DNA of 33,163 bases from Betaproteobacteria bacterium. GTDB lineage: Bacteria; Pseudomonadota; Gammaproteobacteria; Burkholderiales; Rhodocyclaceae. Positions 8,237-10,509 of the stretch are shown here, piece by piece. Within the stretch, counting starts at the first letter, position 1. Each line of letters begins with the position of its first letter. The DNA lies in NCBI GenBank assembly GCA_012026675.1, contig VEPA01000013.1, positions 1 to 33,163 on the forward strand, read 5' to 3'. A model generated the notes under the pieces. The model was not told the DNA's origin, made no database searches, and saw nothing but the letters and a program-made list of their open reading frames with translations. The position numbers and the translations under genes were made by a program.

Positions 8237-8388
8237 CGCTGTCCCGCGCAGCGTAACGCGCAAGTAACAAATCCGGAAGTCGATGCACGAGAAAGTCGGC
8301 TCTGGCGGGACGGCGAAAGTCCCCTGCTGACAAGCATCAAGGATTCTTTAGTGCCCATTGCGGCCGGTCACTCTCTGAGAAAGCGGAT

Positions 8389-8456
8389 GCTCAGTGTTTG
8401 ACATGAGAGGCGTCGCGCAGCTTGCCAGGCGACGCCTCTCGATTGATGGGTTAGGC
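8389..8456 (-). repeat. attC-like (59-base element-like) site with perfect 12-bp stem
   Basis: GCCTAAC (8456-8450)...GAGAGGCGTCGC/GCGACGCCTCTC arms (8429-8440 and 8405-8416)...CATGTCAAAC + ACTGAGC in place of GTTRRRY. Confidence 0.6.
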
Positions 8457-8487
8457 GCTGGGCGCGACGGCGGTGGAAGTAGTGATT

Positions 8488-8889
8488 TCATGCGATTCGA
8501 TCTAGTGGATGATTCGCACCGTCGCTGACGCGAACGGGTTCGAGATCAAAGGGATTCACGCCTTCTAGGCACCCAACGTTGTAGCCGTACTCATTCGGAT
8601 TTGAGCGGCGTTGGTGATGGGTGTAGATGCCGCAGATTGAACAGAAGCAGTGGCTAGCTACTTTTGTATTGAACTGGTAGGTACTCAGTGATTCCTCACC
8701 TTGCACGACCTTGAGGCCACTCTTCGGGACGATGGCCATGATTGCGCCCCTTCGTCGGCACATGGAGCAGTTGCATCGAAGTGGATTGACGATTCCATCT
8801 GGAAGATCGAGCTCCAGTACCACAGCGCCGCAATGGCAGGACGCGCGATGTTTTGCTTGGATTTGCGTGCCTCCGACACTCTTGATCAT
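8488..8889 (-). CDS. GFA family protein (glutathione-dependent formaldehyde-activating enzyme-like, Zn-binding)
   Basis: ASCHCGAVVLELDLP, RCNCSMCRRRGA, FCSICGIYTHH cysteine motifs typical of GFA/CENP-V fold; ATG at 8889 preceded by GGAGG (ORF track start at 8901 is TTG). Confidence 0.9.
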   Translation of the reverse strand: MIKSVGGTQIQAKHRASCHCGAVVLELDLPDGIVNPLRCNCSMCRRRGAIMAIVPKSGLKVVQGEESLSTYQFNTKVASHCFCSICGIYTHHQRRSNPNEYGYNVGCLEGVNPFDLEPVRVSDGANHPLDRIA

Positions 8890-8924
8890 TGCGACCTCCA
8901 AACGGCGAGTTCTCTGGCGCCTAA

Positions 8925-9006
8925 CAGTTATTCAGACGCGGAAGCGTCCGGGTTATTGCCAATAATACGGACACGATCGAAATGCCTTTAAGCTATGGAA
9001 TAACTG
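8925..9006. repeat. 82-bp element with 9-bp terminal inverted repeats (CAGTTATTC...GAATAACTG)
   Basis: CAGTTATTC at 8925-8933, GAATAACTG at 8998-9006; internal imperfect palindrome at 8946-8972. Confidence 0.5.
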
Positions 9007-9060
9007 AGAGATTATCGGATACCGGTCCCCTTATCCATCAACCATCGTACGGATAGAGCA

Positions 9061-9108
9061 CGAACGTCTGCTTTTCGGACGGTTCGCGAGTGTCGGCTCA
9101 TGGCCGAC
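9061..9108. repeat. Two tandem stem-loops in the intergenic region
   Basis: CGAACGTCTG-CTTTT-CGGACGGTTCG (9061-9086, one bulge and one G-U) and GTCGGC-TCATG-GCCGAC (9092-9108). Confidence 0.55.
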
Positions 9109-9171
9109 TTTGCCCCAATAAAATCCCGTCGTCCCGCCAGCACCGACTTTCCACAAGCTGATTCAAATACG

Positions 9172-10509
9172 TCAGCTACCGGCAATCGTCATGCGCTCGA
9201 CCAGGATGGAACCGACCTGTTTCGAGCCTCGCACTTCGATGTCATTGCCGATGGCGGCAATGCCGCGCAGCATTTCGCGCAGGTTGCCGGCGATGGTGAT
9301 TTCCTCCACCGGATAGGCGATCTCGCCCTTTTCCACCCAGTAGCCCGCGGCGCCGCGCGAATAGTCGCCGGTCACGTAATTCACGCCCTGGCCGAGCAGT
9401 TCCGTCACCAGCAGGCCGCTGCCCATTTCGCGCAGCAACCCCTTGAGATCATGCCGGCCGGGTTGCACCAGCAGATTGTGGGCGCCGCCGGCATTCCCCG
9501 TGGTCTGCAGCCCGAGCTTGCGCGCGGAATAGGTGGACAGGAAGTAGCCCTGCAGCACGCCGTCCTTCACCACCTCCCGATCGTGCGTGGCGACGCCATC
9601 GTCGTCGAAGGGCGAAGAGGCGAATCCGCCGCGGAGATGCGGCCGTTCGCTGATCTGGACGAAGTCGGGAAACAACTGCTGGCCCAGGCTGTCGACGAGA
9701 AAGGAAGTCTTGCGGTAGAGCGCACCGCCTGAAATGGCATGCACGAAGCTGCCGATCAGGCCGGCGGCCAGCGGCGCTTCGAATATTACAGGACATTTGC
9801 GCGTCTTCAGCTTGCGCGCGCCGAGTCGCGAGAGGGCGCGCCGTGCGGCGTAATCGCCCACTGTCGCCGCATCGGGGAATTTCCGCGCATCGCGCTGCGA
9901 GACATACCAGTCGTCACGCTGCATGTCCTCGCCTTCGCCGGCGATCACCGAGCAGGACACGTAGTGCCGCGAGGTGGCGAAGCCGCCCATGAAGCCCAGG
10001 CTGTTGGCGGATACAAAGTGCGAGGTCTGCGCGGAAACGCTGGCGCCTTCGGAGTTCTTCACCAACGGACTGACGTCGAAGGCCGCCTGCTCGCAACGGC
10101 GCGCGGTTTCGATGGCGGCCTCCACCGAAATATCCCAGGGATGGAACAGGTCCAGATCCATGGTTCCGGTCGCCAGCAGTTTCGCGTCGGGCAGGCCGGC
10201 ACAGTCGTCCTCTGCGGTGAAGCGCGCGATCGACAGCGCCGCCTCGCCCGAGGCCTTGACCGCCGCCAGAGAGAAATCGGAGCTGCTGGCATGGCCGCGC
10301 CGCTGGCCGATGTACACCGAAACGCCGAGCCCCTTGTCACGGTTGTACTCGATGGTTTCGACTTCCTGCCTGCGCACGCTGACCGACTGGCCGAGACCCT
10401 CGGAAACATCCACCTCGCAGGCCGTGGCTCCCTTGGCGGCGGCGTGATCGAGGACAGTCTGTGCCAATGCACGCAGTGCTTGCTGGCTGTGGGCGAATCC
10501 TTGTGACAT
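9172..10509 (-). CDS. pmbA: Metalloprotease PmbA/TldE family
   Basis: MSQGFAHSQQALRAL...EVDVSEGLGQSVSVRRQEVETIEYNRDKGLGVSVYIGQRRGHASSSDFS, KEIAYPVEEITIAGNLREML C-terminus; adjacency to darP. True start taken at ATG 10509. Confidence 0.92.
   Translation of the reverse strand: MSQGFAHSQQALRALAQTVLDHAAAKGATACEVDVSEGLGQSVSVRRQEVETIEYNRDKGLGVSVYIGQRRGHASSSDFSLAAVKASGEAALSIARFTAEDDCAGLPDAKLLATGTMDLDLFHPWDISVEAAIETARRCEQAAFDVSPLVKNSEGASVSAQTSHFVSANSLGFMGGFATSRHYVSCSVIAGEGEDMQRDDWYVSQRDARKFPDAATVGDYAARRALSRLGARKLKTRKCPVIFEAPLAAGLIGSFVHAISGGALYRKTSFLVDSLGQQLFPDFVQISERPHLRGGFASSPFDDDGVATHDREVVKDGVLQGYFLSTYSARKLGLQTTGNAGGAHNLLVQPGRHDLKGLLREMGSGLLVTELLGQGVNYVTGDYSRGAAGYWVEKGEIAYPVEEITIAGNLREMLRGIAAIGNDIEVRGSKQVGSILVERMTIAGS

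Follow-up and report, generated by a model that had tools for sequence, protein, structure and literature searches.

How does a short gene packaged like a mobile integron cassette come to stand in a chromosome where no integrase is seen beside it? The question is raised by a GFA-family gene on the minus strand of the window, that is, the whole stretch of 33,163 nucleotides analysed here. All of the parts that the original prediction had read by eye (GTTAGGC, an ATG with GGAGG upstream, one short CDS, GCCTAAC and a 12-bp stem) are present. The ATG at 8889 lies 29 nt past GTTAGGC, the stop codon occupies 8490-8488, and GCCTAAC at 8456-8450 follows 31 nt past the stop; the features are collected in Table 1. 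The family assignment stands as well, with a Pfam score of 50.9 bits against a curated gathering cut-off of 24.3. The translation carries the cysteine motifs CHCG, CNCSMC and CFCSICG and has a relative in the PDB (3fac, E=2e-45); the predicted gene product is a GFA/CENP-V-fold zinc protein. The drop in GC content that had been suspected is real: values are 0.53-0.56 across 8251-9250, compared with 0.62-0.70 just before this interval and 0.60-0.66 just after it. Core heptamers by themselves are weak evidence of a cassette, because the window contains 25 occurrences of GTTRRRY and three of GTTAGGC. If the GTTAGGC before the gene is the core site, crossover would be expected between G8925 and T8924.

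Table 1. Features of the GFA cassette and its surroundings, with positions in the window.
Feature	Position	Strand	Sequence or remark	Basis
REP-like repeat	9127..9151	minus	GAAAGTCGGTGCTGGCGGGACGACG; genus-wide; native sequence of the site, beyond the platform	
Left end (LE-outer), ~51 nt	9057..9107	minus	TCGGCCATGAGCCG...AAAGCAGACGTTCG	alignment of integrase-less congener copies
attI-like core, 134 nt	8923..9056	minus	ends ...GAATAACT/GTT	model R2
Promoter-like motif, window copy	9037-9032 and 9016-9011	minus	TGGATA and GATAAT	consensus columns TTGATA-N15-GATAAT
Putative L box, 1-nt spacer, R box	8919..8933	minus	GAATAAC-T-GTTAGGC	direct reading
Core site	8925-8919	minus	GTTAGGC	sequence
Ribosome-binding site	8895..8899	minus	GGAGG, 5 nt upstream of the ATG	sequence
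GFA-family (PF04828) CDS	8488..8889	minus	133 aa	Pfam
attC-like hairpin of the GFA cassette	8390..8456	minus		covariance model R3
R'' box	8456-8450	minus	GCCTAAC; part of the GFA cassette attC	
Perfect 12-bp stem	8440-8429/8416-8405	minus	within the GFA cassette attC	
L' tail	within attC 8390..8456	minus	CATGTCAAAC	
Right end (RE)	8348..8395	minus	CTGAGCATCCGCTTTCTC...CCGCAATGGGCAC; aligned with 14 other right ends	model R1
Second, inverted REP-like copy	8291..8315	plus	native flank common to G012 and G017	
Neighbours of the cassette locus in this lineage			pmbA/tldD on one side, a spermidine-synthase-like gene on the other	

A scan for strictly paired RYYYAAC and GTTRRRY boxes missed the attC of the window, since its R' box is lost, and a covariance model (R3) was used instead. 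Its training set comprised 15 attCs, taken from congeners and from a class 1 integron, and did not include the window; the consensus structure of the model shows compensatory changes in 47 cells compared with 16.8 in shuffles. The model matches 8456-8390 with 36.6 bits and E=1.9e-8 in a search space of 50.6 kb, covariance E-values being rough. Across the genome of the window's own assembly (G000), E<=0.001 is reached by this hairpin alone, with E=1.3e-6. As folded DNA, the hairpin exceeds each of 200 shuffles in stability (z -4.2). A search of the window at the Rfam gathering threshold returned nothing. Sequence alignment with the attCs of the aac(6')-Ib and dfrB10 cassettes reveals the same R''/L'' GCCTAACCC.TC.ATCGAG and the same L' CTCATGTCAAAC, but the attC of the window differs from them in having neither GTTRRRY nor the bulged base. 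Its R' box, the impropriety of which the original prediction had overlooked, reads CAAAC/ACTGAGC where CAAAC/GTTRRRY is expected, and the conserved bulged (extrahelical) base is deleted. These two losses point to a degenerate attC rather than to a structure of another kind. With ACTGAGC as R' and the conserved unpaired base missing, the site would be expected to have little or no recombination activity.

The cassette appears foreign to the place where it stands. No orthologue of the GFA gene is found in the 30 congeners, where the best match is a 38% paralogue in G012. The flanking genes are separated by ~20 to 110 bases in G019, G022, G029, G015, G005 and G002, compared with 935 in the window. 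Other congeners carry unrelated insertions at this locus, and G017 and G012 have a weak right-end-like sequence there, with no attC and no attI. The closest GFA homologue found, with 88% protein identity, lies at the contig edge of a Methyloversatilis MAG (L041), thus in another genus and in a different context, and is bounded by GTTAGGC on both sides. Similarity between the two loci starts exactly at GTTAGGC and the upstream sequences are not clearly alignable, as is expected if one cassette entered different sites in two loci. The gene start directly after the core site, at a G/TTRRRY boundary, is common to another cassette. A dN of 0.06 and a dS of 0.68-0.77 between the window gene and its Methyloversatilis orthologue indicate that the GFA gene is under purifying selection. 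In the Methyloversatilis locus (L041, 1-560), the second GTTAGGC lies 15 nt past the GFA stop and is not accompanied by an attC. That cassette has apparently been fused to the next one and has lost its own attC.

The same observations bear on the simplest reading of the locus, namely a vertically inherited GFA gene whose downstream hairpin is like a rho-independent terminator and only by chance similar to an attC. The 12-bp stem past the stop is indeed strong and heptamer matches are cheap, but this reading is already refuted by the covariance match, by a scan of the window in which no terminator was found, by the absence of the gene from the congeners, and by a boundary that matches a foreign cassette. 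We give it practically no credence. Neither of the outcomes that the original prediction had named as refuting it was seen: the attC covariance model gives a match, and the congeners have not retained the gene. By these features the GFA gene is the occupant of a genuine integron gene cassette, where cassettes, here and below, are called from sequence only.

The sequence that the cassette adjoins upstream is not particular to this locus. A plain DNA search with the 150-nt flank before GTTAGGC found matches in many congeners with 73-98% identity, and nearly all of the strong ones stop at base 8926, immediately before GTTAGGC. In the congener copies, GTT or a close variant of it comes after the element, and the gene beyond differs from locus to locus. 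A 134-nt model of this attI-like core (R2) gives 115.5 bits and E=3e-33 on the window copy, which was in its training, and finds a total of 24 copies distributed in 16 of the 31 congeneric genomes. Outside the genus, the core was found in 16 genomes of ten other genera (299 genomes of the family scanned). The alignment of 16 copies reveals a mean column identity of 90%, with TTGATA and GATAAT among the columns; these two lie 15 nt apart and look like a promoter. A promoter scan of the window at standard threshold gave no sigma-70 site; the spacer of the motif is 15 nt and the window copy reads TGGATA. At its end the core reads GAATAAC-T-GTT, similar to L and R boxes as they occur in a simple site. 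The first ORF usually lies 7-29 nt beyond the attI end, and the products of the first cassettes vary across copies, with BrnT/BrnA, FRG, GNAT, GGDEF, HEPN and others. As a further candidate, the upstream side had been considered as the attC of an older cassette; this was rejected, as it shows no hairpin (z -0.37) and proved to be the attI-like element.

Outside the core, a left end of ~51 nt is common to most of the integrase-less copies in the genus, and the one copy that bears intI is without it. In the fetched loci, a left-end HMM matches only beside the attI core, apart from a pair of matches with E near 0.3; one of the pair belongs to a degenerate second unit in G000. This unit (L269, G000:C205:4844-4947, minus strand) possesses a weak second attC and a right end; its left end is degenerate, no attI is recognisable in it, and it stands behind two membrane-protein-like ORFs of 125 and 165 aa. 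A shortened platform was found in G008:C34 (L233, 6478-6757), where the promoter part is missing and there is no ORF of at least 60 aa before the right end. The promoter part has apparently been lost by deletion between two TGTCCGTAT repeats of the attI-like element.

On the other side of the cassette, a conserved sequence of ~50 nt, G/TTCCTGARCGTCCGCTTTC...GGGCAC, follows the last attC of most units and constitutes the right end. Model R1, which had the window in training, gives 39.2 bits and E=1.9e-9 on the right end of the window, where the preceding GTTC has been lost. The same loss of GTTC is seen before the right end of a second solitary cassette, located in G028:C18 (L173, 199-1229, minus strand). 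That cassette carries a 293-aa ORF, starts with GTTAGGT, and has the same attC type and the same right end; its R' box is degenerate (GCTGAAC) and no attI-like element was detected. Right ends in the same orientation lie 0.2-4.3 kb downstream of 18 of the 24 attI-like copies, compared with ~0.04 expected by chance, a pairing that is partly circular in that the model was built mostly from copies downstream of attI. Five pairs stand outside R1 training (G021, G022, G027:C14, G029:C267 and G030), as does a locus in another genus, L288, with a complete attI, attC and right end in order. Two of the six attI-like copies without a right end run into contig ends. The left and right ends have only the short inverted motif GAACGTCYGCTTT in common. 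A search for empty platforms, with attI joined straight to the right end, found none, and no clean target-site duplication was found at the platform ends; orthologous flanks are too diverged, and the comparison of G026:C492 with G008:C34 is only suggestive.

Inverted REP-like repeats at 8291-8315 and 9127-9151 had also been considered as transposon ends. The two copies form a 25-nt inverted repeat with 88% complementarity. However, same-orientation copies are native to this intergenic region in several cassette-free congeners, and the repeat, GAAAGTCGGYGCTGGCGGGACG, is genus-wide, with many copies per genome and at many congener loci; the candidate was therefore rejected. The flank at 8291..8315 aligns with G012 and G017.

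Insertion at a secondary site, which the original prediction had offered as one origin of the locus, can be weighed against these elements. A one-off insertion at a non-attI site of the attG type (non-classical) would leave a solitary cassette outside an integron, with the integrase acting in trans, and it would agree with the lack of a nearby integrase, the non-canonical R' side and the empty regions in relatives. However, the upstream sequence is a conserved element with many copies in the genus and more widely, and the complete copies end at the cassette junction. An attG site is a minimal G-T site that shares neither a 134-nt sequence of this kind nor a right end with others, whereas here the same left and right sequences recur with different cassettes. 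We regard the attG-type insertion as very improbable. The target is better described as a conserved attI-like platform, recurring in the genus and in other genera, with left and right ends of its own.

One homologous copy connects the element to an integrase. In G013 the attI-like copy (C15:18931-19063) has on one side an integron integrase, which scores 387 bits against a cut-off of 265, and on the other a BrnT/BrnA toxin-antitoxin cassette, which carries an attC and is followed by a right end. An attI lies between intI and the first cassette, as does this homologous copy, but not the window copy. The G013:C15 locus (L194, 12191-14076) is a complete integron, with a single BrnT/BrnA cassette plus right end. 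Because only this copy adjoins intI, the remaining ones are putative attI sites, named by homology. No intI was found in the fetched flanks, some of them short, of the window, of 17 other copies in the genus and of 14 copies in other genera. As originally noted, the window has no intI-like ORF, and none above the TIGR02249 cut-off was found in the G000 assembly. The G000 assembly is a draft MAG of 86% completeness in 267 contigs. Since integron arrays are hard to assemble, the cell may possess an intI that the assembly has missed. The genus is integron-rich. Genes for intI above the cut-off were found in 23 of the 31 congeneric genomes, several of which have two or three, and from 1 to 40 attCs at E<=0.001 in 30 of the 31, many of them on contigs without a detected intI. 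An integrase acting in trans would therefore be available to most members of the genus, though it is not visible in G000.

The orphan platforms could alternatively be ordinary chromosomal integrons, each of which has independently lost intI by decay. In favour of this, degradation of integrons is the common reading of CALINs (PMC9024848), both intI and attC are plentiful in the genus, and the complete form is seen in G013:C15. However, separate losses would leave differing remnants, whereas most integrase-less copies of the congeners possess one left end outside attI, which is absent from the intI-bearing copy. Independent decay also sits badly with G011, which has four platform copies, two of them in tandem and separated by a right end and a left end; the order on C55 is RE-LE-attI-cassettes-RE-LE-attI-cassette-RE. 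The shared left end and this tandem argue that the integrase-less unit itself was copied, and we consider independent decay unlikely. The tandem platforms (L223, G011:C55, 5279-8885) display three right ends; the first has four attCs and the second one gene.

Comparison with known systems places the locus near, rather than within, the described classes. The CALIN-like remnant of the original prediction holds in so far as the window has an integrase-less cassette with an attC, and the CALIN class of IntegronFinder likewise consists of one or more attC-bearing cassettes without an adjoining intI. The one attC of the window falls below the default threshold of two in IntegronFinder 2 (PMC9024848). 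The window differs from a CALIN in the flanks of its cassette, which stands between a conserved attI-like site bearing a promoter-like motif and a conserved right end, elements that are copied to many loci; the label omits this site and these ends, and the conserved repeated elements on both sides of the cassette had been overlooked. A sedentary chromosomal integron likewise has an attI-like site and attC cassettes, the first of them next to attI, and G013:C15 is the platform with intI. However, such an integron has one array beside intI, whereas many small platforms are present per genus here and no intI is found at the locus. A complete integron needs intI adjacent to attI, and the window locus is without one in an incomplete assembly. 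In Delta-attI-type cassettes of class 1 and 2 integrons (PMC12901181), attI sequence likewise stands away from its usual place, as a short fragment that substitutes for the attC at the 3' cassette end. Here, instead, the attI-like site of 134 nt lies ahead of the cassette and recurs at scattered chromosomal positions.

The reading that we prefer, and hold to be quite likely, is that of an integron platform without integrase, which holds one cassette that was loaded in trans and is now probably fixed. The platform would be a dispersed family-level repeat composed of the ~51-nt left end, the 134-nt attI-like site with its promoter-like motif, and the ~50-nt right end. An integron integrase supplied in trans would have inserted the circular GFA cassette at G/TT of the attI-like site through attI x attC recombination. 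After such an insertion the GFA gene would start ~36 nt past the junction and would be transcribed from the platform promoter. Later decay of the attC, in the R' box and the bulge, may then have left the cassette in place, kept for the GFA gene product. The cassette is probably fixed now, because no integrase is seen in G000 and the attC has neither R' box nor bulge.

Integron tools look for intI and attC. The attI sites beyond class 1 integrons are poorly described, and IntegronFinder does not search for them (PMC9024848), so that orphan platforms of this kind would escape notice. In the literature searched, which mostly lacks subscription papers, nothing was found that describes orphan attI platforms in dispersed form, and the novelty is provisional; that IntegronFinder passes over such attI sites would account for this silence. 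For the family as a whole, we see about an even chance that the platform is a dispersed integrase-less mobile unit, a 'satellite integron', which would spread as a unit, have its cassettes loaded in trans by a resident integrase, and provide several separate expression sites per cell. The platform reading explains some single-cassette loci other than by decay or random insertion. If it is true, captured genes would not be confined to one array under one promoter, and the copies would allow one attI family to be compared, in nature, with its integrase and without it.
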